A stretch of 34,143 nt of DNA from positions 1 to 34,143 of the forward strand of contig CALFDH010000020.1 in assembly GCA_937950405.1 (NCBI GenBank), written 5' to 3'. The notes below the pieces were generated by a model that was not told the origin of the DNA, ran no database searches, and was given only the letters and a program-made list of their open reading frames with translations. The stretch comes from an uncultured Meiothermus sp. GTDB lineage: Bacteria > Deinococcota > Deinococci > Deinococcales > Thermaceae. Positions 1,244 to 19,239 of this stretch are shown piece by piece (the first letter of the stretch is position 1; every line of letters begins with the position of its first letter). The translations under genes and the position numbers were made by a program.

Positions 1244-2071
1244 ATGCAAGCCCTTATCTTCGACTTCGACGGCACCATCCTCGACACCGAAAGCACCGAG
1301 TTCCAGGCCTGGCAGGAGGTCTACCAGCAACACGGGGCCGAGCTTTCGCTGGACTACTGGCTCCCCTTTATCGGCAACAACTCGATTCCCTTCGACCCTG
1401 CGGGCCACCTGGAAAAACTGCTGGGCAGGCCGCTGAACAAGGAGGACATCGAAGACTGGGTTGGGCAGCGCAAACAATCCCTTAACCAGAGCCTGAAGCC
1501 CCTGCCGGGGGTATTGGACTACCTCGAGGCCGCCGAGGCGGTGGGCCTCAAGCTGGCCGTGGCAAGCAGCTCGAGGCGGGCCTGGGTCGAAGGGCACCTG
1601 GAGCGGCTGGGGTTGCTACCGTACTTCCAGGTCATCCGCACCAAGGAAGATGTGGCCCTGACCAAACCCGACCCAGCCCTCTTTTTGCGGGCTGCCGCAG
1701 GGCTCGGGGTATCGCCCCAGGAAACCATTGTGCTCGAGGACTCGCAAAACGGGGTACGAGCGGCCAGGTCGGCGGGGGCTTTTACGGTGGTCATCCCCAA
1801 CGTCCTCACCCGGCACCTGGATTTGAGCCAGGCCACCTGGTGCTTGACTGCCTTTGCGACCCTCCGCTTTGAGACCTGCTGCCCATGGCCCGGGAGTGGA
1901 GCCGCGCCCGGCTACCCACCGTTATTTAGAAAACGCAGGATGCCCAAGGCCAGGGCCTCGGCCAGGGCCTGCCGATACTCGCTTTTCTGGAGGCGGCGGC
2001 CCTCCTCGGGGTGGTTGGCAAAGCCGACCTCGACCAGAATGGCCGGGATGCGGGCATTGCGAATCACGTAA
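1244..2071 (+). CDS. HAD-superfamily hydrolase (beta-phosphoglucomutase/phosphatase-like), probable C-terminal frameshift
   Basis: A haloacid-dehalogenase-type phosphatase or phosphomutase. Motif I is FDFDGT with nucleophile D7 and acid D9, motif II lies in LAVASSS (about 104-110), the motif III lysine in LTKPDPALF (about 139-147), and motif IV in VLEDSQNG (163-170). The helical cap sits between motif I and motif II. The fold ends normally near residue 197 (TRHLDLSQA), but the remaining roughly 78 residues are Arg/Pro-rich and overlap the antisense amidase gene by 160 bp. Reading one base earlier from codon 197 gives HLVLDCLCDPPL and a stop at 1870-1872, a typical HAD ending and a 209-residue protein. 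I infer loss of one C in a CCC run, or a sequencing error. The long tail is probably not a native domain. Substrate unknown. Confidence 0.75.
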   Translation: MQALIFDFDGTILDTESTEFQAWQEVYQQHGAELSLDYWLPFIGNNSIPFDPAGHLEKLLGRPLNKEDIEDWVGQRKQSLNQSLKPLPGVLDYLEAAEAVGLKLAVASSSRRAWVEGHLERLGLLPYFQVIRTKEDVALTKPDPALFLRAAAGLGVSPQETIVLEDSQNGVRAARSAGAFTVVIPNVLTRHLDLSQATWCLTAFATLRFETCCPWPGSGAAPGYPPLFRKRRMPKARASARACRYSLFWRRRPSSGWLAKPTSTRMAGMRALRIT

Positions 2072-2994
2072 AACGGAGCCTGCCGCACCCCCCGGTCTAG
2101 TGCACCGGTGGCCTGGAGCATGGCCCCGTGCACCAAATGGGCCAGTTGACGCGAGAACTTGAGGTTAGACTGGGCAATCAGATCGCGCACCAGCCGCTCC
2201 CCCACACTCTGGGCCTCGAGGGTCAGGCGGCGGCCCAGCTCGCCCCCACCGTTTTCGCGGATGACCTGGGCCAGCAGGCTGGGGTCAATGGTGTGGCCAA
2301 AATAGTAGGTCTCGATGCCCTGGGCCACGTTGGGCGCACTATTGATGTGAATCGAGACGAAGAGGTTGCGTTTGGAGTTGGCCATCTCGGCCCGCATGCC
2401 CAGATCGGTGGCCTTGTCAGAGGAAAGGTGGGTGTCGCTGCTGCGGGTGAGAACGACCTCAACGCCTTGCTGTCGCAAGAGTTTTTGCAGGCGCAAGGCC
2501 AGGTCGAGGGTGACCTCCTTTTCCACTACAAAACCCACCGCGCCGGGGTCTATCCCCCCATGCCCGGCATCGATCACCACAGTCTTGGGCTGGGAGCGGG
2601 GTTTGGGGGGCTCTGGGCGGGTAGACGCTTGCGGCGGGTTCTGGGCGGGTTGGGTCACGCTCACCACATCCACCACCAGACGCCGCCGATTGCCATCATT
2701 GAGCACAGTGGTCTTGACTTCTACACTGGGGCGCAGACGAACAAACACCGTTGCACCGCCCGCCGCGGGCACCACCTGATAAGACGCGACCTGGGGAGAG
2801 CTGACATCGGTATCGCTGGCGTTTGGAGCCACGCCGCTAAAGCGAAGGGTCAGGGTGTCGGGCGTTTGCGAAAGCTGGTACTGGGTTTTGGCCTCGAGGT
2901 CGAACACCAGGCGGGTGTAGCCTTCGTGCAGACCCAGCCTGGGAAAAGCCAGAGCCGGAGCCAGAATTACGATCAGAAAGGCTAATAACCGCAT
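1912..2994 (-). CDS. N-acetylmuramoyl-L-alanine amidase (AMIN + Amidase_3)
   Basis: A 360-residue exported peptidoglycan amidase that cleaves the bond between MurNAc and L-Ala. Residues 1-17 are a signal peptide (MRLLAFLIVILAPALAF). Residues about 20-110 form a beta-rich AMIN-type targeting domain, and 115-138 a Pro-rich linker. The catalytic Amidase_3 domain starts at KTVVIDAGHGG. Expected zinc ligands are visible: H145 in DAGHGG, E158 in VVEKE, and H216 in VSIHIN. The catalytic glutamate is E322 in ILVEVGFANHPEE. The architecture is that of AmiC/CwlM-type enzymes used in septum splitting and wall turnover. A TATACT box lies 9 nt before the ATG. Its 3' end converges with the HAD gene. The call is solid; which of several possible paralogues it is cannot be told. 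Confidence 0.93.
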   Translation of the reverse strand: MRLLAFLIVILAPALAFPRLGLHEGYTRLVFDLEAKTQYQLSQTPDTLTLRFSGVAPNASDTDVSSPQVASYQVVPAAGGATVFVRLRPSVEVKTTVLNDGNRRRLVVDVVSVTQPAQNPPQASTRPEPPKPRSQPKTVVIDAGHGGIDPGAVGFVVEKEVTLDLALRLQKLLRQQGVEVVLTRSSDTHLSSDKATDLGMRAEMANSKRNLFVSIHINSAPNVAQGIETYYFGHTIDPSLLAQVIRENGGGELGRRLTLEAQSVGERLVRDLIAQSNLKFSRQLAHLVHGAMLQATGALDRGVRQAPFYVIRNARIPAILVEVGFANHPEEGRRLQKSEYRQALAEALALGILRFLNNGG

Positions 2995-3560: not shown

Positions 3561-4184
3561 ATGAAGCACTGGATTCTGTTACTCACGCTTCTCTCGCTGG
3601 TGGGGCTGGCCTCGAGGTTTGCCGGCTTCGAGGTGCGGCCCAGGGGCAACTCGGAGCTCGATGTGGGCACCGGGATCTATACTCTGCCCACCGGCGGCAC
3701 CATCACCGACAACAAGAGCGGGCTGGTGCTGGAAGCCCGCTACATCCAGTACCGCGACGGCGACTTTATCAAGGCCCAGGGCGCCACCCTAAAGGCCAGG
3801 GAGGGCGAGTTTGCTGCTACGAGCCTCGAGTACCTGCAAAAGCCCGATACCCTGCGGATGAACGGGGTGCGTTTTAGTTCCAAAGAGTTCAAGGCCCTCA
3901 CGGCTCAGCAGGGCTTGCTCCTCAAAGAGGACGTGCTGGTGCTCAAAGGCGAGGTGCGCTCGAGCGACCCCGCTCTCGAGGCCAGTACCCTGGTGGTGGA
4001 CACCGCCAAAGACCAGGCCCTGGTGCTGGGGGTGTTTACCTATCGGGACGGCGCTACCACCCTGCGGGGCAACCGGCCCGATAGCACCCTGCTGCTCACC
4101 TTTGCCGACGGCAAGGTGCGGGCCAACACCCGCGTGCCTGCCGAGGTCTTGAACCGTCTGCGCCCCTACGCCGATAAACTGTAG
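3561..4184 (+). CDS. LptA/LptC-like (OstA-fold) periplasmic protein
   Basis: A 207-residue protein with an N-terminal signal or anchor (MKHWILLLTLLSLVGLASRFAG). It is followed by a repetitive beta pattern rich in short strands, such as LVLEARYIQYRDGDFIKAQGATL and DTLRMNGVRFSSKEFKAL. This pattern and size resemble the OstA beta-jellyroll of LptA/LptC/YrbK proteins, which form the periplasmic bridge carrying lipid to the outer membrane. The first gene of a tight operon, it is followed 3 nt later by an LptD-like gene and then an LptF/G-like permease, which strongly supports the reading. Sequence similarity alone would be weak. Whether it is the LptA (soluble) or LptC (anchored) equivalent is unclear; the single N-terminal hydrophobic segment allows both. 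Confidence 0.7.
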   Translation: MKHWILLLTLLSLVGLASRFAGFEVRPRGNSELDVGTGIYTLPTGGTITDNKSGLVLEARYIQYRDGDFIKAQGATLKAREGEFAATSLEYLQKPDTLRMNGVRFSSKEFKALTAQQGLLLKEDVLVLKGEVRSSDPALEASTLVVDTAKDQALVLGVFTYRDGATTLRGNRPDSTLLLTFADGKVRANTRVPAEVLNRLRPYADKL

Positions 4185-4187
4185 GGC

Positions 4188-5873
4188 GTGTGGATGGGGA
4201 GAAAAAGGTACAGGGCTCCAGAGCCCACAACAGGCACAGGCGCAAAGGGCCAAGGGGCAGCGAAACCCCCTCTTCCCTGCGCCTTCTCGCCTTTTCTTCT
4301 CCTGGCCCTGCTGTTCAGTGGCCTGGCCTGGGCCTCCCCCGGCCCTGTTCCCTGCGCCGAAGCGTCTTACACCCTCGAGACCCCCGAAGGGCTGGCGGGT
4401 GGGGGAAACTTGGAATTTGATGGTGAGGTGGCCATCTTCAGCGACGGAGCCTGTTTACAGACCAAGGGTTTGTTGCTGCGAGCCCCCAGCCTGCGCTACG
4501 ACCAGACCAGCGGCGAACTGACCGCCCAGCAGATCGAGGTAGAAACCCCTCGCTACCGCTTCTGGGCGGAAAAAAGCCACATCAAGGGCCAGGTCTTGCA
4601 GGCCAGCGGGATTCGGGCGACTACCTGCAAGTGCGGCGACGACCTGCGGCTCTTGTCCGAGAGCCTGCGCTTCGATACCCAGAGCGGGGAGATGGTGCTG
4701 GAGGAGAGCCGGCTCGAGGTCTACCGGTTTGGCCTGGCCCGCTTTAGCGAGCTACGCCTGGATCCCGACCAGCCGCTGGGCGAGAACCTGGGGCTTGCCC
4801 CAGCAGGCACCGAAGCCCCCCTGGCCTTGCCGGTTCGCTTCGACTTCGACCAGGGGCTCAATGTGGGATTGAGCGAGTTTCCCCTGCCCGATTCGGGGGG
4901 TCTTGCTGGCAAGTTCAGCACCCGGCTGACCCTGCTGGGCCTGCGCCTGGGCAGCCCTGACCCCATCCTGCGGCTGGGCCTGGCCGTCCAGGAAAAAAAC
5001 CGCCGGGCCAGCCTGCAATTCGATAGCAAGCCCAGCGGCGTGGCCAGCCGGGGCGAGGTGGTGGATGGCCCCCTGTTCTTTGTGCACGATAGCGAACTGG
5101 GCCGCTATGCCTTCGGGCTCAAACAGGCTTTTGCCCTGGGGCGCTTTACCCTGATCCCTTATGGTTGGATGGCTCAGGACTGGCGCGACGGCACCCCCGC
5201 CACCCAGGTGCAGGGGCTGGCGGCAGGGGCCGAACTGCGCTACCGTTTCGAGGTGCAGGAGGGGCTCTTTCGCTTTCGCCTGGAGCCCTTTGGGGTGCTG
5301 GGCTTCTATGATCAACCCCAGCAGTACCTGGCCTACGGCGGGCAGGCCGAGGGCCGCTACGAGGGCGACTATAGCCTGCGGGTGGGCTATACCTGGGCCA
5401 TTGAGTCCACCCCCGGGCGCTTCTGGATCGAGCGCCGCGAGGCCACCCAGAAGCTCTCGGGCAGCCTGCTATACCCTGGCTTTCGCCTCGAAGCAGAACA
5501 CGATTTCCTGAAGAGCCAGACCGAGTCCAGCCTACGGATAGGCTTCATGCAGGACTACGGTGAGCTATGGGCCCAGCTCCACACCTGCTGGAACTGCGTG
5601 GGCAAAACCCTAAGCAATGGGCGCGACGACTGGGAACGCCGGGAACTGGTGGTGGGCTTCACGCCGGTTCCACTCTCCTGCACCTACGACCTCAACCTGA
5701 CCCCTTTCCTCGGGTATGATTTCCTGCGCCTGGGCGTCAGCCGCTGGGGTCTGGAACTGCGCTACGCCGACTGCTGCTTCATCTGGCGGCTAGGCTACCA
5801 GGAAATCCGCCTGGCCCAGCAGCCCGGCGAGGTGGCCAGCGGCAAACTTACTTTTGGGCTGGAAATTCGATGA
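4188..5873 (+). CDS. LptD-like outer-membrane assembly protein
   Basis: A 561-residue protein. A long polar lead precedes a hydrophobic export signal (PFLLLALLFSGLAWA, about 35-49), so the GTG start at 4188 or the ATG at 4194 both give an unusually long signal. Residues about 55-190 form an OstA-like domain (ASYTLETPEG to GEMVLEESRLEVYRFG). About 200-561 is a beta-barrel-like region with alternating aromatic strands, ending in LTFGLEIR. Cysteines are notable: C147/C149 (TCKCGDD), C467/C470 (CWNC), C498 and adjacent C529-C530 (ADCCFIWRLGYQ). Adjacent C-terminal cysteines are a hallmark of E. coli LptD, where they pair with N-domain cysteines. It lies between an LptA/C-like and an LptF/G-like gene, with a stop/start overlap to the latter. 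The transported lipid is unknown. Confidence 0.78.
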   Translation: MWMGRKRYRAPEPTTGTGAKGQGAAKPPLPCAFSPFLLLALLFSGLAWASPGPVPCAEASYTLETPEGLAGGGNLEFDGEVAIFSDGACLQTKGLLLRAPSLRYDQTSGELTAQQIEVETPRYRFWAEKSHIKGQVLQASGIRATTCKCGDDLRLLSESLRFDTQSGEMVLEESRLEVYRFGLARFSELRLDPDQPLGENLGLAPAGTEAPLALPVRFDFDQGLNVGLSEFPLPDSGGLAGKFSTRLTLLGLRLGSPDPILRLGLAVQEKNRRASLQFDSKPSGVASRGEVVDGPLFFVHDSELGRYAFGLKQAFALGRFTLIPYGWMAQDWRDGTPATQVQGLAAGAELRYRFEVQEGLFRFRLEPFGVLGFYDQPQQYLAYGGQAEGRYEGDYSLRVGYTWAIESTPGRFWIERREATQKLSGSLLYPGFRLEAEHDFLKSQTESSLRIGFMQDYGELWAQLHTCWNCVGKTLSNGRDDWERRELVVGFTPVPLSCTYDLNLTPFLGYDFLRLGVSRWGLELRYADCCFIWRLGYQEIRLAQQPGEVASGKLTFGLEIR

Positions 5874-7003
5874 CCCATCTGGATCGTTACATCCTCCGCG
5901 AAGCCTTGCCGGTTTTTTTGTTCGGGCTGGTGCTGTATGTGGGCTTTGGCCTGATTAGCAATATCCTGCCCAGGGCGCAGTGGATGGGCACCGCCGAGCT
6001 GGGTAGCATCCTCAAGTGGCTGGCCTTGCAGGTGCCTGCCGCCTCGGTGCAGGCACTACCCATTGCGGGTCTCCTTTCGATTCTGCTGGCTTTTGGACGA
6101 CTGGCTCGGGAGAACGAGCTCCTGGTGATGCAGGCCGGCGGCATCTCGGTGCTGCGTACCGCCCGGCTGTTTTTGCTGGGGGGGCTCCTCTTGAGCGGGC
6201 TCTCGCTGGTGCTCTCGGAGTGGGTGGTGCCCTGGGCCAACCGGGCTACGGCGGTGGTGTACTGGAACGAACTTGTTCCCGAGCGCACCGCTCAGTTTCG
6301 CCTGGTCGGGCGTGAGCTTTCGGTGGGTGACTACACCCTGCGCTTTGAGGGTTTCGATGCGGCCAAAGATGAGTTACAGCAGGTGCGCCTCGAGCGCTGG
6401 CAGGGCCAGACCATGACCGTGATTCTGGCCCAGAGCGCCCGCTTGCAGGGCTCGGTGATGGTGTTCCGGGACTACAAGGTATTTACCCTGGACTTTGCCC
6501 GCCTGCCCCTCCCCGAGTTTGCCACCCTCGAGCAGGCCGAAACCGGCTTGCAAGAGGTCTTCCGGGCCCAGAACATCGGCCAGGCCGGGGCCGAGCTTTC
6601 GGTGCGGCTCTCCCGTAGCCGCGAAGACCTGGAAGCCCAGTACGCCGGGGGCGGCTTTGAAACGCCGGTCTCGCTTTCGGAGTGGTGGCGCAAACTCCAG
6701 AATCCCAGCACCCCGCCCCGCGAACGGCGCGAAGCCAAGGCCCAGTGGCATTCCGGCATTGCCCTGGCCCTGGGCAACCTGATGGTGCTCATCCTGGCCC
6801 TGCCCATTGCGGTACGCCGGGCCACCAGCCCCGGTACGGCCCTGGCGTTGGCCCTGGTGCTCACCATTGCCTACTATGTGGCTTTCAGCACCGGCAAAGT
6901 GCTGGCCCTCTCGAGCCCCCTGCCCCCCGAACTCGCGGCCTGGGGCGCCAACCTGCTGGGTCTGGCGGTGGGTCTCTGGCTGGGAAAGGGCATTTACCGC
7001 TGA
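5870..7003 (+). CDS. LptF/LptG (YjgP/YjgQ) family permease
   Basis: A 377-residue inner-membrane permease. It opens with LDRYILREALPVFLFGLVLYVG, the standard YjgP/YjgQ start. There are transmembrane segments at about 12-33, 53-75 and 98-125, a periplasmic beta-jellyroll in the middle (about 130-280), and three C-terminal helices (about 290-375). The motif RLARENELLVMQAGGIS is the conserved cytoplasmic loop that contacts the LptB ATPase. The ATG overlaps the TGA of the LptD-like gene (ATGA), so translation is coupled. Proteobacteria need LptF plus LptG plus LptB; only one permease and no LptB are in this window, so partners must lie elsewhere or the protein works as a homodimer. Confidence 0.9.
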   Translation: MTHLDRYILREALPVFLFGLVLYVGFGLISNILPRAQWMGTAELGSILKWLALQVPAASVQALPIAGLLSILLAFGRLARENELLVMQAGGISVLRTARLFLLGGLLLSGLSLVLSEWVVPWANRATAVVYWNELVPERTAQFRLVGRELSVGDYTLRFEGFDAAKDELQQVRLERWQGQTMTVILAQSARLQGSVMVFRDYKVFTLDFARLPLPEFATLEQAETGLQEVFRAQNIGQAGAELSVRLSRSREDLEAQYAGGGFETPVSLSEWWRKLQNPSTPPRERREAKAQWHSGIALALGNLMVLILALPIAVRRATSPGTALALALVLTIAYYVAFSTGKVLALSSPLPPELAAWGANLLGLAVGLWLGKGIYR

Positions 7004-7077: not shown

Positions 7078-8262
7078 ATGATTCCGATACTGGACCTGAA
7101 GCAAGAGTACCTCGAGCTCAAGAGTGAAATTGATGCCGCAGTGGAACGGGTGCTGTCTTCAGGCGGGTTTGTGGGGGGCCCCGAGGTGGCCGCCCTGGAA
7201 AGTGAGTTGGCAGCCTATCTGAAGGTGCCCCATGTGGTGACCTGTGGCTCTGGCACGGATGCGCTCTTCATTGCCCTCAGGGCCATGGGCATTGGGCCGG
7301 GGGATGAAGTCATTACCACCCCCTTTACCTTTATTGCCACCCTCGAGGCCATCCTGCATGCGGGGGCCAGGCCGGTGCTGGTGGATATCGACCCCCAGCA
7401 CTACAACCTGAACCCCGCACGGCTGGAGGCAGCCCTCACCCCGCGCACCAGGGCTATTCTGCCGGTGCACCTCTATGGGCAGGTCGCGCCCATGCAGGAA
7501 ATCCTGGCTTTTGCCCAGCGGCATGGTTTACAGGTACTCGAAGACGCCGCACAGGCCATCGGGGCCCGCTACTGTGCTTCTGGCTGCCAGCACCTTGGTG
7601 AACAGGCCCAACAGGGCTCTGTCCCGATAGGGGATCGTCTATCAGTAGGCCGGCCCTGCAACTGCCCCCAGCCGCTGGCCGGAACCCTGGGCGATGCCGG
7701 GGCTTTCAGCCTGTACCCCACCAAGAACCTGGGCGCCTATGGCGACGGGGGCTTTATTGCCACCCAAAGCGAGTCCATTGCCGAGGAGTCGCGCCTCCTG
7801 GCCGCCCACGGCTCCCGGGTGCGCTACCACCATGTGCGGGCCGCCGGCTACACCTCGAGGCTCGACGCCTTGCAGGCGGCCATTCTGCGGGTGAAGCTGC
7901 CCTACCTGGAAACCTGGAACGCCCGCCGCCGACAAATCGCCCAGATGTACCACCAGGGGCTTCGGGACAGGGTGCAGGTTCCCTGCGAGATGCCCTACGC
8001 CCTGCATATCTACCACCAGTACACCGTGCGCCACCCCGAGCGCGACCGGCTGGCCGCTTACCTGAAAAACCAGGGCATCGGTAGCAGCGTCCACTACCCG
8101 GTTCCGGCGCATCTGCAACCGGCCTACCGCGACCTGGCCCCCGAAGGCGCGCTCCCCGCCGCCGAGGCCGCCGCCCGCGAGGTGCTGAGCCTGCCCATGC
8201 ATCCTTTTTTGCAGGAGGCCCAGGTCGAAGCAGTGATTCAGGCAGTCCGAAGTTACGCCTAA
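7078..8262 (+). CDS. DegT/DnrJ/EryC1/StrS-family PLP-dependent sugar aminotransferase with Cys-rich insertion
   Basis: A 394-residue PLP enzyme that probably transfers an amino group to a nucleotide-linked keto-sugar. Family landmarks are FVGGPEVAALESELAAYL, CGSGTDALFIALRAMG, DEVITTPFTFIATLEAI, VLEDAAQAIGARY and FSLYPTKNLGAYGDGG, with the Schiff-base lysine at about K216. Between GARY and AGTLGDAG there is an insertion of about 35 residues containing four cysteines (CASGC and CNC). Shorter family members run straight through this site. The ATG at 7078 has a modest AGGTG ribosome site 7 nt upstream and lies 74 nt after the LptF/G gene, so it may be part of that operon. Candidate products include 3-amino or 4-amino sugars for envelope glycans; the substrate cannot be read. 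Confidence 0.85.
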   Translation: MIPILDLKQEYLELKSEIDAAVERVLSSGGFVGGPEVAALESELAAYLKVPHVVTCGSGTDALFIALRAMGIGPGDEVITTPFTFIATLEAILHAGARPVLVDIDPQHYNLNPARLEAALTPRTRAILPVHLYGQVAPMQEILAFAQRHGLQVLEDAAQAIGARYCASGCQHLGEQAQQGSVPIGDRLSVGRPCNCPQPLAGTLGDAGAFSLYPTKNLGAYGDGGFIATQSESIAEESRLLAAHGSRVRYHHVRAAGYTSRLDALQAAILRVKLPYLETWNARRRQIAQMYHQGLRDRVQVPCEMPYALHIYHQYTVRHPERDRLAAYLKNQGIGSSVHYPVPAHLQPAYRDLAPEGALPAAEAAAREVLSLPMHPFLQEAQVEAVIQAVRSYA

Positions 8263-10438: not shown

Positions 10439-12037
10439 TCAAGCCTGGGGGGTCGTGATGGGGGGGTTTTCCTCGGTGGTGTTTTGCAGATGGGCCCGCT
10501 CAATCAGGTCTTTCTCCCAGCCCAGGTAGTACTGCTTTACCGATTCCGAGGCAGTGTCCTCGGTGAGATACTTGACATTGGAGTATATCGAGGCCCGGTA
10601 GTCGCGTACCTTGCCGCTACGCAGGGCATCAATCACCTGCTGAATGCCCTTTTCTACCGTCCACTGTGGCACAAAGCCCAACAAGTAACGAATCTTGGAA
10701 AAGTCTACGCGGTAGTTGCGCCGGTCGCCATCGCGGCCTGAGTCAATCAGCTCGGCGTCGGGAACCAGTTTCTTGACCAGTTCGCCTACCATGCCCAGGG
10801 TCATGTTGCCGTCGTTTCCGCCCACATTAAAGGTCTCGTTGTGGACGCGCTCCTTGGGAGCCTCCACCGCCAACATCACCGCCAGCGAGGCATCGTCCAC
10901 GTGGACAAAAGGCCGCCACTGATCGCCCCCAAACACCGTGATCTTCTTGTCCACAATGGCCTTGGCAGTAAGCAGGTTGACCACCAGGTCGAAGCGGGTA
11001 CGGCCCGAGAGGCCATAAATGGTGCCAAAACGCAGGATCACCACCGAAAAGTCGTCGCTCTGGAGCTTGTGCAGCACCTGCTCGGAGGCAATCTTGCTGC
11101 GGGCGTAGAGCGAGACCGGGTTCAGGCTGCTCCGCTCGTTGAGCACCATGTCGCTGGCCCCGTACACCGAGCAGGTGCTGGCAAAGATGAAACGCCGCAC
11201 ATGCATACCCTTGGCGATCTCGGCAATGGTGCGGGTTGCCACCAGGTTGATTTCGATGGTCAGGTTTTCATCCAGGGCACAGGCCGGGTCACCCACCAGG
11301 CCGCCCAGGTGTACCACGGTGTCCACCCCGCGCATGGCCTCCACCACTTTGTCCACCTGGCGGAAATCGGCCTGGATGATTTCCAGGTTGGGGTGGTGCA
11401 GGACGTGAGCAATGGGCTCCTTACCGAACATCAGCAGGTCGAGCAAGCGCACCTTGTAGCCCCGCTCCAACAGCCGGGGCAGCAAACCCGAGCCGATATA
11501 ACCCGCACCCCCAATCACCAGGATGGTGCGGTCGTTGGTGTGGAGGTTGGGGATGGGGCTAGCCTTGGCCTCGGCCCTGGCTTTTCGCCCTAGTTCAACA
11601 ATGAACCAGTAATGCACCCAGGCACGGGAGCCCAGGGTAAGTGCTAGCGTGAAGAGAAAGCCCAAAAACACCACCAAGCTGGGTGGGTTGGCCACGGCAG
11701 GAATCATGAAAACGGTAAAGCCATATACCAAATACACCAGGGCAACGGCCTGGGCTACCACCAGCATTTTGTAACGACCCCGGTAGGCACGACCCCTGGT
11801 ATAGAAGCCGTTGGCAGCAAAAATGGCAAAGCTGACCAGCATCAGAATCCAGATGTTCTGGGCGTACACCTGAGCATACTGTCCCAACAGACTGGGGTTG
11901 GCCCCCGCTCCGTTGTAGGCCAGGAGCAAGTGAATCACCATCGCCACCGCAAAGCTTCCTGCAACCATAAGTTGGTCGGCCAGGGCCCGCAACATCACAT
12001 CGGGGCTAAAGCGCAATTCCTTCAAATTCTGAATCAT
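10439..12037 (-). CDS. Membrane-anchored NAD-dependent sugar epimerase/dehydratase (SDR fused to a transmembrane domain)
   Basis: A 532-residue fusion. Residues about 20-155 contain four or five hydrophobic helices (LMVAGSFAVAMVIHLLLAY, NIWILMLVSFAIFAANGFY, VALVYLVYGFTVFMIPAV, LVVFLGFLFTLALTLGS), resembling in layout the membrane part of CapD/WbpM/PglF-type enzymes. From residue about 172 comes a full extended SDR: ILVIGGAGYIGSG (NAD loop), the active-site region ASTCSVYGAS and the YARSK Y-x3-K pair, then VILRFGTIYG and RPFVHVDDAS. The ASTCSVYG site is epimerase-like; the TDE triad of 4,6-dehydratases is absent. A good AGGAG ribosome site precedes the ATG. It lies 18 nt downstream of the aminotransferase gene, so the two probably act on the same nucleotide sugar at the membrane. 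Confidence 0.85.
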   Translation of the reverse strand: MIQNLKELRFSPDVMLRALADQLMVAGSFAVAMVIHLLLAYNGAGANPSLLGQYAQVYAQNIWILMLVSFAIFAANGFYTRGRAYRGRYKMLVVAQAVALVYLVYGFTVFMIPAVANPPSLVVFLGFLFTLALTLGSRAWVHYWFIVELGRKARAEAKASPIPNLHTNDRTILVIGGAGYIGSGLLPRLLERGYKVRLLDLLMFGKEPIAHVLHHPNLEIIQADFRQVDKVVEAMRGVDTVVHLGGLVGDPACALDENLTIEINLVATRTIAEIAKGMHVRRFIFASTCSVYGASDMVLNERSSLNPVSLYARSKIASEQVLHKLQSDDFSVVILRFGTIYGLSGRTRFDLVVNLLTAKAIVDKKITVFGGDQWRPFVHVDDASLAVMLAVEAPKERVHNETFNVGGNDGNMTLGMVGELVKKLVPDAELIDSGRDGDRRNYRVDFSKIRYLLGFVPQWTVEKGIQQVIDALRSGKVRDYRASIYSNVKYLTEDTASESVKQYYLGWEKDLIERAHLQNTTEENPPITTPQA

Positions 12038-12055
12038 CCCTGCTCCTCTCGCACC

Positions 12056-13246
12056 CTAGCGCGAAGCCTCTTGCATCACCTGTTCGGACACATCGGCGGT
12101 AGCCTGGATATGCTCCATGCTCAGGGTGGGGTGAACCAGGAACATCAGGGAGGTCTCACCCAGCTCCTTGGCCACCGGCAAGCGCTCGGCAGGCTGCCAG
12201 CCGCGTTTGGTAAAGGCTTTCTCGAGATAAATTTCTCCACAGCTTCCGGTGGTACATGGAATACCGGCTTCAGAAATAGCTATCATGATGCGGTCCCGGT
12301 TCCAGCCCGACTTGAGCATCTCGGGGCGCACATAGACGTAGTACTTGTAATAGGCGTGGTATAGATCGGCGGGCACCTCTGGTACGCGCAGAGCTGGGAT
12401 CTGTCGGAAGCGCTCACTCAAGTAGTGGGCATGCATCCGGCGTTTCTCGATCCAACCGTCCAGCTTGCGCAAAATCACCCGGCCAATGGCCGACTGCACT
12501 TCGAGCATCCGCCAGTTGGTACCGAAATCCTCGTGCAGCCAGCGGAAGCCCGGAGGGTGCTGGCGGTTGTAGACCGCGTCGTAGCTCTTGCCGTGATCCT
12601 TGAAGCTCCAGGCATTGCTCCAAAGCTCGTCATCGTTCAGAGTGAGCATCCCGCCCTCGCCACCGGTGGTCAGAATCTTGTCCTGGCAGAATGACCAGGC
12701 CCCTGCATGGCCGATGGAGCCCACACTCTTGCCCTTGTACTTGGCGCCGTGGGCCTGAGCACAGTCCTCAATCACCCAAAGGTTGTGCTTACGAGCCAGC
12801 TCCATGATGGGGTCCATATCCGCAGGCCATCCCGCCAGGTGCACTACAATAATGGCCTTGGTGCGGGGGGTGATGACCTTCTCGATGGTCTCGGCAGTAA
12901 TCAGGCCACTGTCACGGTCTACGTCAGCCATGATCGGCCTAGCCCCCCGCATTACCGCTGCACTGGCCGAGGCAATGAAGGTGCGCGGGGTGGTGATGAC
13001 TTCGTCACCTTCCCCCACACCCATCGCATACAAGGCCAGTTCGATCGCTACGGTGCCATTGTGCAAGGCAATGGCATGTTTAGTACCGACATAGTCGGCA
13101 AATTCGCGCTCGAAGATGCGGCCTTCCTGGCCCGTCCAGTAATTCACCTTGCCGGACTGAAGCACCCTGACTGCTGCTTCGATTTCATCGGGCTCAAAGT
13201 AGGGCCAGGGAGCAAAAGGTGTGACGGTAACGGGATTTTTCAACAT
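12056..13246 (-). CDS. DegT/DnrJ/EryC1/StrS-family PLP aminotransferase
   Basis: A 396-residue nucleotide-sugar aminotransferase with no insertion of the kind seen at 7078. Landmarks: ALHNGTVAIELALYAMGVG, DEVITTPRTFIASASA, VIEDCAQAHGAKYKGK and FCQDKILTTGGEGG, where the Schiff-base lysine is K190 of the shorter start. The ORF track starts at 13279, but the ATG at 13246 has a clear AAGGAG 7 nt upstream, while the longer start has its only purine stretch fused to the ATG. I therefore choose 13246. It is followed by the membrane-anchored epimerase and preceded by a long AT-richer gap with a possible promoter, so these two genes may form their own transcript within the polysaccharide locus. Exact sugar unknown. 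Confidence 0.88.
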   Translation of the reverse strand: MLKNPVTVTPFAPWPYFEPDEIEAAVRVLQSGKVNYWTGQEGRIFEREFADYVGTKHAIALHNGTVAIELALYAMGVGEGDEVITTPRTFIASASAAVMRGARPIMADVDRDSGLITAETIEKVITPRTKAIIVVHLAGWPADMDPIMELARKHNLWVIEDCAQAHGAKYKGKSVGSIGHAGAWSFCQDKILTTGGEGGMLTLNDDELWSNAWSFKDHGKSYDAVYNRQHPPGFRWLHEDFGTNWRMLEVQSAIGRVILRKLDGWIEKRRMHAHYLSERFRQIPALRVPEVPADLYHAYYKYYVYVRPEMLKSGWNRDRIMIAISEAGIPCTTGSCGEIYLEKAFTKRGWQPAERLPVAKELGETSLMFLVHPTLSMEHIQATADVSEQVMQEASR

Positions 13247-13671
13247 CGGTGCGCTCCTTCGTAGGCTGGAGACATTCATCTCCGGAGATATGCTAGAAAG
13301 GGTAGGTCAAATAGCGTTATGCCTGCGTTATTCGCCAAAAAGTGCGATGTATAGCTGCATTGTCGCCTTCGTTACGCCTGCTCGCAAGGCTTTTTCACGG
13401 AGCAACACAGCAGTAACGTGCCTGATAACGAAGACTGACGTGAGCACAACCCCAAGGCTGCCTTCGAAATCTACAAGAAATCCCGTTCAGGAAGTTTTTA
13501 TTTCCAGGTATAGAACCATTCCGTTTCTTACCATCCGTAACCGGGTGTTACAGATTAACGGGTCATTTATCCCTATCACACAACGGCGATTCAAGACAGG
13601 TACAAAGCACCTGATTGCATTTTCAGAGTTTTTAGAAAGAATGCCCCTGTCCAATTGGGTTGAAATTTGGT
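13247..13671. other. AT-richer intergenic gap within the polysaccharide locus
   Basis: This 425-bp gap is clearly less GC-rich than the flanking genes and has no credible ORF; the 180-aa plus-strand ORF over it has no family features and runs antisense into both neighbours. It holds a candidate minus-strand promoter at 13566-13594. A small hairpin, CAGGT-GCTTTGT-ACCTG, lies just upstream of that promoter on the minus strand. About 310 nt of leader would precede the aminotransferase. Confidence 0.5.
13566..13594 (-). promoter_or_regulatory. Candidate promoter TTGAAT-N17-GATAAA for the aminotransferase-epimerase pair
   Basis: On the minus strand TTGAAT (13589-13594) and GATAAA (13566-13571) are 17 bp apart. 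Both hexamers and the spacing are the same as in the candidate promoter upstream of the acyl-CoA synthetase at 27858-27886. It would give a leader of about 310 nt. Confidence 0.4.
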
Positions 13672-14622
13672 TCAGAGGGCCCCTAGCCGATAGGCTGACC
13701 AGAATAAAAAAGCCACCACCAAGAGGATCAAAGACGCTCCTACCAGCAAAACAGCGTTGCTGACAATCAGGCCCACTTTGACCAGAATGGCCGTGATTGC
13801 CCAGACCACCAGTACGGTCTTGGCAGGGTTGCGCACATAAAGCTGATCCAGTCGGTCATAGGTGTGGTCCCGATCACCGTCGAAAATGGGCTTGCCCCGC
13901 CGCCAGCGCCGGATAATCCCCGCCGCCATATCGTAGAGTGGGAAACTCACCATGACCCCAGCGGCCAGAAAAGTGATCCAGCCGTGGGTAGCAGAGAGCA
14001 TCAACAGCACGGCCAGCATGTAGCCCGTCGAGAGGCTCCCGCAATCGCCCATGAAGGTTTTGGCCTTTGGATAATTCCACACCAAAAAGCCCACAAGGCT
14101 GCCTACCACAATAATGGCCAGCATGGCCTCGAGTTCTAGCGACCAGAGCATAACTGCCAAACCCGCGGCCGAGATCATGGCGTTACCGGAGGCCAGCCCG
14201 TTCATGCCATCAATCAGGTTCACAGCGTTGGCCATCAGCGGAACCAGCACAATCCCCATAGCCAGCCCCAACCATCCCAACTCGCTCCAGAAGTGCACGC
14301 CCAGAACCACCCCAGCCACCAATTCGGCGGCCAGGCGGGTCTTGGGCGATAGGTTGTAGCGGTCGTCAAGGGTGCCGGTAGCGGCAATAATTAGCAGACC
14401 CAGCAAAGCCCATCCTGACAAGGAGCCCGTGTACAAACCCCAGATGGCGATAGTAGCCACGATACCCATCCCTCCAAAACGCGGGGTAGGCAGGGCATGA
14501 ATCTTGATTTCCCCGGGCTTATCCACAATGCCTAGGGCTCGAGCCAGCGGAATGGACAACCCTACCAGGGCCACCGCAGACACCACCGTGAAGAGCAACA
14601 ACAACCAGTCCAACACAAACAT
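13672..14622 (-). CDS. WecA/TagO-type undecaprenyl-phosphate sugar-1-phosphate transferase
   Basis: A 316-residue polytopic membrane enzyme of the MraY/WecA/TagO family. These enzymes start glycan synthesis by moving a HexNAc-1-phosphate from UDP-sugar to undecaprenyl phosphate on the cytoplasmic face. Visible motifs: the HALPTPRFGGMGI start, the TGTLDDRYNL Asp pair (D86-D87), NAVNLIDGMNGLA (132-144), FMGDCGSLSTGY and the His motif DRDHTYDRL. About ten hydrophobic segments are seen. The NAVNLIDGMNGLA form and lack of MraY-specific motifs point to WecA/TagO, not MraY. It is the last gene of the tight wzx-to-GT run; its ATG is 6 nt from the previous stop, with a GAGAGG purine stretch abutting the ATG. 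It probably supplies the lipid-linked first sugar of the polysaccharide. Confidence 0.9.
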   Translation of the reverse strand: MFVLDWLLLLFTVVSAVALVGLSIPLARALGIVDKPGEIKIHALPTPRFGGMGIVATIAIWGLYTGSLSGWALLGLLIIAATGTLDDRYNLSPKTRLAAELVAGVVLGVHFWSELGWLGLAMGIVLVPLMANAVNLIDGMNGLASGNAMISAAGLAVMLWSLELEAMLAIIVVGSLVGFLVWNYPKAKTFMGDCGSLSTGYMLAVLLMLSATHGWITFLAAGVMVSFPLYDMAAGIIRRWRRGKPIFDGDRDHTYDRLDQLYVRNPAKTVLVVWAITAILVKVGLIVSNAVLLVGASLILLVVAFLFWSAYRLGAL

Positions 14623-14628
14623 CCTCTC

Positions 14629-15783
14629 TCAGACCGGCGTCAGCACCGGCTGGCTGCCCAGTGCTTCGACATAAAGCACTTCATGAAGGTGGATAATGTT
14701 GCGCAGATCATAGGATTTCATGCGCTCGCGCCCCTTGTGCCCCATCTCCTGGCTTGCCTCGGGGTTTTCGAGGATCCACTGCATGGCTTTAGCAATAGCT
14801 TTCACGTCTCCAACCTCGGTCAGGAAGCCGCAACCATCCACCAGCAACTCGTGTACCCCCCGGATATCCGCCCCGATCACCGGGATGCCCAGTGCCAGCG
14901 ACTCCAGCACAGCTCTGGGTAGGCCTTCACGCTCGGAGGGCAGCAGGGTCGCGTTGGAAGCGCGGATGAGGGCAGGAATATCCCGCCTCCATCCCAGGAT
15001 ACGCACCTGATCCTCCAGCCCCAGGTTTTTTGACATAGCCCGGATGTCTTCCATCAGCGGGCCAATGCCTGCCAGGGCCAGCACCACGTCTTTCCGGCCC
15101 AGCTCGGCCAGCGCGTTAATTGCATCGCGGTGGCGTTTCTCTGGAGCGTATTCGGCAATCATGAAGAACAGGGGCTGGCCCTCTTGCAGGCCCAGCTCGG
15201 CCCGTACCTGGGCAACTGCCTCGTCATTTACTGCGTCGGCAGAATAGTAGTTCAGGTCTACCCCGATGCCCGGCATATAGCGCAGGCGGCTCTCGGGCAC
15301 GATCCGGTAGCGGCGGCTGGCTTCTTCATCCTCACGGTTGATGACCACCAGATAGTCTGTCCAGGGGCCGGCAATTTTTTCGATACCGAGGAATACCAAG
15401 TTCTTCAGTGGATGACCCCGCTTGTGAAAGTGGTAGCCGTGTACGGTGTAGATAATCCTGGGACGGCGCGGTACGCCGCGCAGGGCCATGCGGGCAATAA
15501 AGGCCGAGACCGGCGTATGCACATGCACGATATCGTAGCCACCGCGCTCGACCAGATCGCGTACCTGCTGTAGCCCTCGCAGGAAGTTTTGCGTGTCGAG
15601 GGGATTGCGCGTCCACTCCAAATCGAAGACCTGGTCGAAGTGCTCTACACAACGGGTGCAGTCGGGCATTTCCGCTGCAGCTGCATCTACCTGCCAACCC
15701 TGAGCACGAAAGTGATCTGCGAATGGTAACAAAAAGTCGGTGAAAAAGCGGGCGATGTTAGCGAGAAACAGGACTTTGGGCAT
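14629..15783 (-). CDS. GT4-family glycosyltransferase (EpsD-like)
   Basis: A 384-residue GT-B-fold glycosyltransferase. The N-domain begins KVLFLANIARFFTDFLLPF and includes YDIVHVHTPVSAFIARMA, TVHGYHFHKRGHPLKN and the segment IEKIAGPWTDYLVVINREDEE, similar to exopolysaccharide transferases of the EpsD type. The C-domain has the nucleotide-sugar E-x7-E motif in PSEREGLPRAVLESLALG. No membrane segments. The ATG sits inside the end of the upstream glycosyltransferase gene (26-nt overlap) with a strong GGAGGTG 5 nt before it, so translation is probably coupled. Donor and acceptor sugars cannot be assigned. Confidence 0.88.
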   Translation of the reverse strand: MPKVLFLANIARFFTDFLLPFADHFRAQGWQVDAAAAEMPDCTRCVEHFDQVFDLEWTRNPLDTQNFLRGLQQVRDLVERGGYDIVHVHTPVSAFIARMALRGVPRRPRIIYTVHGYHFHKRGHPLKNLVFLGIEKIAGPWTDYLVVINREDEEASRRYRIVPESRLRYMPGIGVDLNYYSADAVNDEAVAQVRAELGLQEGQPLFFMIAEYAPEKRHRDAINALAELGRKDVVLALAGIGPLMEDIRAMSKNLGLEDQVRILGWRRDIPALIRASNATLLPSEREGLPRAVLESLALGIPVIGADIRGVHELLVDGCGFLTEVGDVKAIAKAMQWILENPEASQEMGHKGRERMKSYDLRNIIHLHEVLYVEALGSQPVLTPV

Positions 15784-16930
15784 CTTTCACCTCCATTGTG
15801 AGGCCCTTGCGGCGAAGCTGCTCGGCATAGATGGCTTCCCACTGAGTCAGAACGGACTCAAGGCTATAGTGTTGCTGCACAAAAGCCCGCGCAGCCTCCC
15901 CCATGCGTCGTCTTTGCACCTCTGGCAAGGCCATGAGGCGTAGCATGGCAGCACTCAAGGACTGGGCATTTTTGGGGGGTACCAGGTAGCCGGTCTGCCC
16001 CTCCAGCACCACTTCGCGGTTGCCACCCACGTCGGTTGCCACCATGGGTAGGCCGGTAGAAGCGGCTTCTAGCAAGACCATGGGCAGGCCCTCCCAGGCC
16101 GAGGACATCACGTAACCGTCGGCAGCGTTCATTAGGGCCGAGATGTCTTTGCGTAGACCCAGAAAGCAAACTGCTTCACCTAAGCCCAGGGTTTGGGCCA
16201 ACTGCCGGGTGGCCTCCATCTGCTCCCCCAGACCCGCAATCATCAGCCGGGTTTCGGGGCGCTGGGCATGAACCCTGGCAAAAGCTTGCAGCATGTTGGG
16301 ATAGTCCTTGGCCTCAGCAAACCGGCCCACTGCCAGCCAAACAAACTGCGCATCCCAGCCCAACTCCCCCCGTAACTTGGCCCGGAGTTTGGGATCAGGG
16401 CTGAACTCGAGGCTGTTGATGCCATTGGGCATGAAGCGAATTTTCTCCTTGGGAACAGCCCCTACGCTAACGTAGCGCTCCAGGCCAGCCTGGCTCACCT
16501 GGGTGGTGAGGTCGCACCAAGGGTCGGTCAGGCGGTAGGCAATCTCGCGCCAGCGTGAACCCTCGTTGATGTTGTGGGCGGTGGAAATCAAAACCGGCAC
16601 CGGGGCCAGGAGTCGGGCGGCCCGGCCCAGTAGATTGGCGTGGACCATGTGGGTGTGAACTATTTGCGGCTTCTGCTCGCGCAGGTAGCGGGCCAGGGCC
16701 AGCACCGCTCTGGGATCAGGGCTGCCAGGCCTCATCTCCAGCGAGAGGGTAGGGATCTGAGCCTGCGCCAAGTCCTGAGCAACGTATTCCAGCGGAATCA
16801 ACGAGACCACCGAGACCTGCCATCCTCGCTCTTGGAGGCCCGTGGCCAGGCGCACCAACTGAGTCTCGGCTCCCCCCATACCCAGGGTGGTGATCACAAA
16901 AACAATTCGTTTTGGAACAATTGCGGTCAT
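15758..16930 (-). CDS. GT4-family glycosyltransferase
   Basis: A 390-residue retaining glycosyltransferase. It opens with IVFVITTLGMGGAETQLVRLA, the glycine-rich acceptor-side loop typical of GT4, then PQIVHTHMVHANLLGR and ISTAHNINEGSRW. The C-domain shows FMPNGINSLEFSP, VWLAVGRFAEAKDYPNML and the E-x7-E motif in SAWEGLPMVLLEAASTGLP, followed by MVATDVGGNREVV. Full length. The start is 4 nt after the Wzy-like gene stop, and the 3' end overlaps the next gene. One of four GT4 enzymes in the operon, consistent with a repeat unit of several sugars. Confidence 0.88.
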   Translation of the reverse strand: MTAIVPKRIVFVITTLGMGGAETQLVRLATGLQERGWQVSVVSLIPLEYVAQDLAQAQIPTLSLEMRPGSPDPRAVLALARYLREQKPQIVHTHMVHANLLGRAARLLAPVPVLISTAHNINEGSRWREIAYRLTDPWCDLTTQVSQAGLERYVSVGAVPKEKIRFMPNGINSLEFSPDPKLRAKLRGELGWDAQFVWLAVGRFAEAKDYPNMLQAFARVHAQRPETRLMIAGLGEQMEATRQLAQTLGLGEAVCFLGLRKDISALMNAADGYVMSSAWEGLPMVLLEAASTGLPMVATDVGGNREVVLEGQTGYLVPPKNAQSLSAAMLRLMALPEVQRRRMGEAARAFVQQHYSLESVLTQWEAIYAEQLRRKGLTMEVKDAQSPVSR

Positions 16931-16934
16931 GGTT

Positions 16935-18125
16935 TTAGCTCTTCTCTACTCGCAACGCCAATGCCGGCTGCTTGGCAGACAACCAGGCCGGATAAAGCAG
17001 CTTCCAGTGGGTCAAGATCATGCCGAATACGAACCAGGTCTGCTTGCGCCACTCCCAGTTCTGGGCCATAAAAGCCAGGAATAAGATTGCCAGTGCTGTG
17101 AACCAGAGACCGCGCTCGAGGGGGGGCACCTGCCACAGCACCGCCACCACGCTCACCAGCATCAACATAAAGAGTCCCAGGCCCACCAGTCCCATCTCGG
17201 TGGCAATGGAAACAAACAGGTTGTGTGGGGCTACCCAGTCGCGGAATAGCTCGTGCTCGCGCAAGGATGCACCAAAGGCCCCTGCGCCCACACCCAGAAT
17301 GGGGTGGTCCGAGAAGTTCTGCCAACCAGCCAGCCAGATGTTGGTACGGTCGTTGAGGCTGCCCTGGGTCAGTTCCTCGCTCAAGGTTGCCAGGCGTGAA
17401 AAACTCTCCGCAGGAACCAGCATCGGAATCATCCACAAGGCCACCAAGCCCAATACTGTAGCTAGGACCTTCACCCGCCAGGAAGCTCTGGGCAGGGTGA
17501 AAAACACGAACAAGAGCCCCACCGCCACCCCCAACAAACCCGCCCTGGCTGCGGTTAACAAAATGACCATAACTGCTACAAGGGGATACAGTCGGTAAAG
17601 CCAGACCAGCCGGGAATTCTCCTTGAAGGCCAGGTACCAGGCCATCGGGATGCCCAGGGCCAGTACAAAGGACAGGTCGCCAGGGTCAAAACCATCGGCT
17701 GCAAAGCGCTGGTAATAGGCTTCAGAACCGCTCAAAAAGTTGGAGATGGTGTTGAAACCCGCCACATAGCAGCCCAGCACATAGGCCACCAAAACCCCAC
17801 GCAGTTGCTCAGGTTTTTCCAATACCGAGAACAAAATCCAGAAAAAAGCGAACAGCAATCCATACTGGAAAACACGGTTGAGGGTGTCGGCTGTTTCGAT
17901 ACTCCAGAAATAGCTGAGTGCCGCTAGCAGAGCGAACAGCACGCCCCAAACGTGGGCCTGGTGGAAGCGCAATGAACCGGAAAGCAATACATAGAGCAAC
18001 CCAATCCCTACTGCTCCGATACCCACAAAGCGGCTCAGGGTGCCCAACCCCGGAAGGGTGATGATGTTCTCCCAGGGGACGGTAAACACATACAGCCACA
18101 AGGCAAGATAGGCTAGTCGAGCCAC
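16935..18125 (-). CDS. Wzy/WaaL-type O-antigen polymerase or ligase
   Basis: A 396-residue integral membrane protein with about ten hydrophobic helices. The Wzy_C-type signature lies at about 260-300: GSLNDRTNIWLAGWQNFSDH, PILGVGAGAFGASLREHELF and APHNLFVSIATEMGLVGLG, where the Arg and His are the residues expected in the large periplasmic loop. Family members either polymerise undecaprenyl-linked repeat units (Wzy) or ligate the chain to a lipid or protein (WaaL, PilO/PglL); sequence does not separate these. Presence beside a Wzx flippase and WecA-like transferase favours Wzy. GTG start, 1 nt after the upstream stop, with GAGGGGAAG as ribosome site. Confidence 0.85.
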   Translation of the reverse strand: MARLAYLALWLYVFTVPWENIITLPGLGTLSRFVGIGAVGIGLLYVLLSGSLRFHQAHVWGVLFALLAALSYFWSIETADTLNRVFQYGLLFAFFWILFSVLEKPEQLRGVLVAYVLGCYVAGFNTISNFLSGSEAYYQRFAADGFDPGDLSFVLALGIPMAWYLAFKENSRLVWLYRLYPLVAVMVILLTAARAGLLGVAVGLLFVFFTLPRASWRVKVLATVLGLVALWMIPMLVPAESFSRLATLSEELTQGSLNDRTNIWLAGWQNFSDHPILGVGAGAFGASLREHELFRDWVAPHNLFVSIATEMGLVGLGLFMLMLVSVVAVLWQVPPLERGLWFTALAILFLAFMAQNWEWRKQTWFVFGMILTHWKLLYPAWLSAKQPALALRVEKS

Positions 18126-18126
18126 T

Positions 18127-19224
18127 TTACTTCCCCCTCAGCAATTGCAGGTATTGATTCACCACTACCGCCTGGGTATAGCCTGCATACGCTTCTTCCG
18201 ATGTCAGCTTGCGGGGTTCGGAGAGGGTGGCCGTGATGGCCTGAGCTAAAGCGGAAGCATTATTCATGGGTACCAGGCGACCCAGCATTCCCCCTCGCAA
18301 AATTTCCCTAGGCCCGCTAGGGCAGTCTGTAGCCACCACCGGGGTTCCCAGCGCCAGGGCTTCGATGAGTACCGTAGGCAATCCCTCCCAGTCGGAAGAT
18401 AAGACAAACATAGCAGCCCTTTTCATGTAGGCGTAGGGATTTTGCACAAACCCCGGCAAGCTCACTTCGGCTTGCAGGCCCAGCTCACCTATCAGGGCCT
18501 CGAGCGCCGAACGGTCTTCGCCCTCGCCCAAAATCATCAGGCGGGAGGGGTGCTGCTTGCGAACCTCCGCAAAAGCACGAATCAGGTTGGGAAAATTCTT
18601 CTGCTGGGTCAGGCGGCCCACCCCCAGCAAAACGGGCGGCTGACCGGGTTGGAGCCAGGGGTGCTCGACATGTTCCTCGGCCCGCTTGAAGAGATCAGGA
18701 GTCACGACCGGGTTGTGAATGACCCTCACCTTCTGGCGAATCCCGGTCATCTTGATGAAGTCGTCCACCACGCCCTGCGAAACCCCCACGATACCGGTGG
18801 CCCAGGGGTAAAAAAGCCTCATGGCCAGGGGCGTCAGGCGACCCCGAATGGAACTGGCATGGCTCGCATCCTGGGTCGGGGTGTTTTGCATGCAAACCGC
18901 CACCCGGCTCTGCCCACCCGCCAGCCGCCAAGCCCACAAGGCCACTACATTGGCATGGTCGAGGGCCGAGACCATACCCACCGGTTTTTCTTCTCGCAGG
19001 TAGCGGGTCAGTGCTGGCAAACTCGACAGCACCCGCCCTGCTTTCAAGTCCACCACCCGAACCTGTGGGGGTACCATCTTCAGGTAGGGGCCCGTAGCTG
19101 CGGCCAGCACCAGGTCTACGTCTACATCTTGCTCTGCCATCCCAATGGCCAAGTTGAGCATCGAGCGCTCAGCCCCGCCCCCCAACAAGGCTGGGAGATA
19201 GACCGCAAATCGTTCTCTAGACAT
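18127..19224 (-). CDS. GT4-family glycosyltransferase
   Basis: A 365-residue GT-B glycosyltransferase. It starts RFAVYLPALLGGGAERSMLNLA, a classic GT4 GGGAERxxxxLA loop. It continues with LREEKPVGMVSALDHANVVA, VIHNPVVTPDL, VLLGVGRLTQQKNFPNLI and the E-x7-E motif in SSDWEGLPTVLIEALALGTP, then VVATDCPSGPREIL. The DCPSGPREIL ending is typical of amino-sugar or galactosyl transferases of capsule loci, but that does not settle specificity. It lies 15 nt after the upstream glycosyltransferase and is similar to it over the whole length, suggesting an old tandem duplication. Confidence 0.88.
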   Translation of the reverse strand: MSRERFAVYLPALLGGGAERSMLNLAIGMAEQDVDVDLVLAAATGPYLKMVPPQVRVVDLKAGRVLSSLPALTRYLREEKPVGMVSALDHANVVALWAWRLAGGQSRVAVCMQNTPTQDASHASSIRGRLTPLAMRLFYPWATGIVGVSQGVVDDFIKMTGIRQKVRVIHNPVVTPDLFKRAEEHVEHPWLQPGQPPVLLGVGRLTQQKNFPNLIRAFAEVRKQHPSRLMILGEGEDRSALEALIGELGLQAEVSLPGFVQNPYAYMKRAAMFVLSSDWEGLPTVLIEALALGTPVVATDCPSGPREILRGGMLGRLVPMNNASALAQAITATLSEPRKLTSEEAYAGYTQAVVVNQYLQLLRGK

Positions 19225-19239
19225 CTATTACCTCCCAAC

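Follow-up and report, generated by a model that had tools for sequence, protein, structure and literature searches.

The window analysed here is a stretch of 34,143 nucleotides from an uncultured Meiothermus sp., whose genome (Meiothermus-like, 237 contigs, 85.8% complete) was examined as sequence stretches and by family searches. Three consecutive open reading frames at 3561-7003 (operon A, Table 1) encode proteins of 207, 561 and 377 aa, the second and third frames sharing 4 bases. A first-pass annotation had proposed an Lpt-type operon here, with LptA/C-, LptD- and LptF/G-like genes, and the folds, cysteines, PF03739 match and conservation described below bear this out. The operon is followed by a DegT/DnrJ aminotransferase gene and has a divergent amidase gene as its other neighbour; an AmiC-type amidase also adjoins operon A in genomes G022 and G008. 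A promoter and terminator scan gave no signal above shuffles.

Table 1. Features at the operon A locus and the second Lpt operon of the same genome
Feature	Position	Strand	Basis
LptA/LptC-like periplasmic beta-jellyroll protein, predicted (operon A LptA)	3561..4184	+	AlphaFold2 model, PDB fold matches, profile in Deinococcota
Short LptD, predicted: signal sequence, jellyroll, ~20-22-strand barrel, cysteine pattern	4188..5873	+	AlphaFold2 model, fold matches, cysteines, hhalign
Single LptF/G permease with coupling-helix glutamate E83 (solo LptF/G)	5870..7003	+	PF03739, residue alignment, own clade
DegT/DnrJ aminotransferase, sugar 3-aminotransferase type (QdtB/WbpE-like), candidate GnnB	7078..8262	+	PF01041 1e-113, nearest solved structures
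AmiC-type N-acetylmuramoyl-L-alanine amidase, divergent neighbour of operon A	1912..2994	-	Amidase_3 2.7e-48
Operon B, LptF-LptG-large LptD	L038:399-5516 (contig C237, same genome)

The 207-aa protein gave no usable sequence match in Pfam, NCBIfam or a phmmer search of the PDB, and profile-profile comparison of the operon A proteins with single E. coli sequences was weak (probability 16% for LptD, 33% for LptA and 1% for LptC). AlphaFold2 was run on alignments that drew some 20 relatives from named genomes, among them Meiothermus, Calidithermus and Truepera. The model of the 207-aa protein has a pLDDT of 89.3, and its best Foldseek matches in the PDB are LptD N-domains, LptC and LptA (E 1e-5 to 1e-3); 14 of the 15 matches at E<=1e-3 are plainly named Lpt and one is titled 'Structure of a membrane protein'. 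Judged by its predicted fold, the protein is a beta-jellyroll of the LptA/LptC/LptD-N type that sequence profiles do not reach.

The 561-aa protein matched no family in Pfam, where no LptD profile hit it, or in NCBIfam, and had no sequence match in the PDB. The best 38 PDB fold matches of its model (pLDDT 81.5, pTM 0.59) are LptD structures, although one carries no title beyond 'Structure of a membrane protein'; the best E is 1.4e-16 and TM-scores are low, 0.3-0.4. The two models match the folds of LptA, LptC and LptD, and the jellyroll and barrel, whose absence would have spoken against the first-pass annotation, are both modelled. The barrel of the model has about 20-22 strands, a count taken solely from its secondary structure list; that of E. 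coli LptD has 26. All four cysteines of E. coli LptD are matched, with Cys56, Cys147 and Cys529-530 aligning to C31, C173 and C724-C725. One lies near the signal peptide, one in a 'TTC' motif past the jellyroll (where the pattern is listed as C147/C149) and the vicinal pair near the C-terminus. Around this pair 'LELRYADCCFIWRLGYQ' aligns to 'LGVQYSSCCYAIRVGYE' of E. coli LptD; of 2000 shuffles each, 0 scored as high in local alignment with the E. coli C-terminus and 1 with the whole protein. The N-domain is homologous to that of a second, larger LptD of the same genome (hhalign 93.7%). From the model and these cysteines, we take the 561-aa protein to be a true LptD whose barrel is smaller.

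The 377-aa product matches PF03739 well above the cut-off (E 5e-61, 207 bits against 27.9), and its E83 aligns to E. coli LptF E84 and LptG E88. Strict conservation of this coupling glutamate has been reported for distant LptFG homologues, together with a role of importance in the coupling to LptB (PMC5082905). The 87 Deinococcota genomes usually carry three LptF/G genes each, which in the genomes read are a tandem pair plus a solo copy. A tree built by a quick method, in which the branches to E. coli are long, puts the solo LptF/G in a clade separate from the LptF and LptG of operon B.

A profile of the operon A LptA is strong in about 80 of the 87 Deinococcota genomes, weak in six and undetected in one; five Thermus-like genomes without LpxC are among those where it is detected weakly. 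LptA and LptD are adjacent in most of the operon A loci read, mostly together with the solo LptF/G. The LptD lies about 2 kb off in Thermus-like genomes, and in f2 and f4 g13 genomes the solo permease sits elsewhere, outside the LptA-LptD locus. Because it recurs in nearly all the genomes of the phylum that we examined, operon A is real and not a chance assembly of genes.

The coupling glutamate of the solo LptF/G varies across the phylum. In the Thermaceae-like families, the solo copies from LpxC-bearing genomes form one clade in which the glutamate is kept, and the LpxC-less genomes mostly fall in another clade in which Ala replaces it, as in the Thermus-like genomes without LpxC (L041, L108-L128). 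The Ala clade includes copies from f4 genomes, two of which (G012 and G013) have the Ala-type copy alongside other LptF/G genes. The glutamate is intact in the solo LptF/G of LpxC-less f2 genomes, in G064 and G065 and in the operon copy of G012. We rejected the idea that loss of the glutamate tracks loss of LpxC independently, given that the Ala copies are one clade and LpxC-less f2 genomes keep Glu; on the tree the change to Ala happened once, at the level of a clade, and its coincidence with the loss of LpxC therefore carries no independent weight.

The first-pass annotation had pointed to LptB and a second LptF/G as genes to look for elsewhere in the genome. One LptB lies above the cut-off (C151:17814-18527, TIGR04406, 329 bits against 240) and retains the FRR groove motif, and a second Lpt set is present, made up of LptF, LptG and a large LptD (operon B) and an LptC-LptA-LptA' locus on contig C73, the LptA proteins of relatives passing PF03968. 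The operon B arrangement was also read in G022, G008, G064 and G084, and its LptF and LptG keep the coupling glutamate in every genome checked. The large LptD has an RCCW motif at its C-terminal end and N-terminal motifs (PC..C, LPV...RRP, LPYV) more canonical than those of the short LptD; profile-profile comparison with the single E. coli sequence was weak (1%). The genome thus holds two LptD-containing bridges, the compact operon A and the larger operon B set. As a side observation, the large LptD gene is out of frame at a run of six C in the Thermus-like G041 and G040 (L040:9684-12181, L004); the run has seven C, in frame, in G053 (L005), and the gene is in frame in G050 (L007) too. Sequencing error, phase variation and transcriptional slippage are alternative explanations of this difference.

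Operon A shares with the E. coli Lpt system the LptF/G fold and coupling glutamate, the LptA jellyroll, the jellyroll and barrel of LptD, and LptB. It differs in having one LptF/G gene instead of two and an LptD of 561 instead of 784 aa, and the genome differs in carrying two Lpt sets and in lacking the full Kdo2-lipid A pathway. A single LptF/G together with OstA-type proteins of about 200 aa is also found in the Lpt cluster of Negativicutes and Halanaerobiales; that cluster includes its LptB and had no recognised LptD (PMC5007114), whereas operon A has its LptD inside and LptB elsewhere.

The first-pass annotation held that these bacteria are not known to make standard lipid A-based LPS, and that a complete lpx pathway would count against its reading. 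The genome does encode lipid A chemistry, in a cluster with the order mreB, lpxD, lpxC, gnnA-like, fabZ, lpxA, lpxB-like, msbA-like, but the complete Kdo2-lipid A pathway was not found. LpxC and LpxA exceed their NCBIfam equivalog cut-offs; LpxD is above its subfamily cut-off, with 230.6 bits for TIGR01853 where 242.5 is required. The GnnA-like protein has NF040723 (UDP-GlcNAc 3-dehydrogenase) as its best NCBIfam match, at E 4e-56 and under the cut-off, and the LpxB-like protein is borderline for PF02684 (21.4 bits against a cut-off of 22.6; 26.8 bits in G084) but fits by its position in the cluster. The order recurs in G022, G008, G084 and G075; in G075 alone of these an unrelated ORF separates the LpxB-like and MsbA-like genes from lpxA; mreB lies upstream of lpxD in the clusters read (L057:1805-2851). 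LpxC was found in the present genome and in 49 of the 87 Deinococcota genomes; the genomes of the Thermus-like genus g4 had none. G021 (Meiothermus luteus-like, 99% complete) has no LpxC by this search, unlike the rest of the genus, which may be an assembly gap.

LpxK and WaaA/KdtA were each found in 0 of the 87 genomes by searches in which E. coli, Caulobacter and Bacteroides were positive controls and Synechococcus a negative one. Since both are absent, the Deinococcota pathway looks like the Kdo-less one of cyanobacteria. It shares with the four-enzyme pathway of cyanobacteria and Dictyoglomi (PMC3087551) the lpxD-lpxC-fabZ-lpxA-lpxB order, with the LpxB-like gene in the place of lpxB, and the lack of LpxK and WaaA, whereas Meiothermus adds the GnnA-like gene between lpxC and fabZ, the mreB neighbour and a strongly diverged LpxB-like protein. 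Earlier published work placed LPS in the ancestor of the phylum (PMC5007114), and later work still counted Deinococci as unable to make LPS (PMC10665443); the papers searched gave no report of lipid A from Meiothermus.

For the aminotransferase gene downstream of operon A, the solved structures nearest to the product are QdtB and WbpE, aminotransferases of 3-keto-sugars, and GnnA and GnnB are known to make UDP-GlcNAc3N (PMC5644692). The enzyme could provide the GnnB activity for a diamino lipid A, both it and the GnnA-like protein being assigned at family level. A DegT gene was seen directly downstream of the solo LptF/G only in LpxC-bearing Meiothermus, Calidithermus and g2 and in G008; it is not immediately behind the permease in Thermus-like genomes, and no DegT gene adjoins operon A in LpxC-bearing Trueperaceae. 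The protein has a mid-protein loop that reaches about 30 residues and is longest in the present genome; to see whether it was an artefact, the insert (about residues 168-200) was compared among Meiothermus orthologues, where it proved to be a loop of variable length.

With middling confidence, we infer that the lipid exported by operon A in Meiothermus is most likely a lipid A-like glycolipid without Kdo. We are led to this by the downstream aminotransferase of the 3-aminotransferase type together with the GnnA-like gene of the lpx cluster, by the restriction of this direct neighbourhood to LpxC-bearing Thermaceae and G008 and, as a weak point, by the Ala at the coupling position in LpxC-less Thermus-like genomes. 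The first-pass annotation had the bridge moving some other amphiphile, for instance the glycolipids of the phylum; it was right in that no complete classical LPS pathway was found, but for Meiothermus the lpx cluster and the DegT gene favour a lipid A-like cargo. The enzymes encoded from lpxD to the lpxB-like gene would make the glycolipid, probably on 2,3-diamino-glucose with the DegT enzyme acting as GnnB, and the MsbA-like ABC transporter would flip it. Two copies of the solo LptF/G with an LptB dimer would then extract it from the inner membrane, for which the single LptF/G of Negativicutes is a precedent. It would be pushed along a jellyroll filament formed by the 207-aa protein and then the LptD N-domain, and the short LptD barrel would release it into the outer leaflet. 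The operon B bridge would serve another envelope lipid or export part of the same one.

Lipid A is a best guess for the cargo. Since operon A is phylum-wide and LpxC occurs in only part of the genomes, lipid A need not have been what the bridge carried originally, and the ancestral cargo may be broader. In a rival reading, which we hold to be rather unlikely, operon A would move a phylum-wide lipid other than lipid A (such as a phosphoglycolipid or polar glycolipid) and any lipid A would use operon B. The presence of the operon A LptA in LpxC-less genomes and the intact glutamate of the LpxC-less f2 genomes fit this, as does operon B itself, whose LptD is larger and more canonical in its N-terminal motifs and whose LptF and LptG are distinct, as in E. 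coli. There is also a precedent in Borrelia burgdorferi, a diderm without classical LPS whose Lpt bridge has been suggested by modelling to carry glycolipids (PMC10353723), although Borrelia has no LPS, whereas Meiothermus has early lpx genes and two bridges. Against it, the 3-aminotransferase gene of LpxC-bearing Thermaceae goes with operon A rather than operon B, and the LpxC-less Thermus-like genomes have an operon A transporter without the coupling glutamate and, in five, an LptA that is only weakly detected.

It is more improbable that the cell has a single bridge built from interchangeable parts, the operon A proteins being alternative or condition-specific subunits that mix with the LptF, LptG, LptC and LptA of the other loci. 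The single clear LptB and the homology of the two LptD N-domains would agree with such mixing, but the operon A proteins stay together through most of the phylum and the separate clade of the solo LptF/G suggests a self-contained unit. Least of all do we expect operon A to export a lipid-linked polysaccharide from the locus at 10439-21659, as the first-pass annotation had suggested: this Wzx/Wzy-type cluster lies in the same contig and encodes a Wzx-like flippase, several glycosyltransferases and a Wzy_C/O-antigen ligase domain protein, but it reads from the opposite strand and lies past a peptidase gene, nothing ties it to the bridge, and operon A itself is conserved phylum-wide. The locus also encodes a second DegT aminotransferase and a nucleotide-sugar dehydratase/epimerase.

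A survey published in 2022 never found lptD in Deinococcus-Thermus, used the absence of lptD from 'atypical diderms' in an argument about the outer membrane of the last bacterial common ancestor, and raised the question of how lipids are moved outward in such phyla (PMC8871954). The genomes read here contradict this absence, provided that the structural and cysteine evidence is accepted: an LptD-type protein missed by standard profiles occurs in nearly all of those inspected in detail, and two are present where both loci were read. What is new, as predicted from the genomes, is an LptD in a phylum reported to be without one, and two parallel Lpt bridges per cell. We put forward, tentatively and as less than an even prospect, that Deinococcota run two separate bridges simultaneously on a shared LptB, an E. 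coli-like one with an LptFG heterodimer and the large LptD and a compact one with an LptF/G homodimer and the short LptD, each for a different glycolipid, and that Meiothermus uses the compact one for a Kdo-less diamino lipid A. A hidden LptD bears on the argument about the outer membrane of the last bacterial common ancestor. With two bridges and culturable hosts with and without LpxC, the phylum is a direct test system, and the finding bears on what an Lpt bridge carries once lipid A has been lost.
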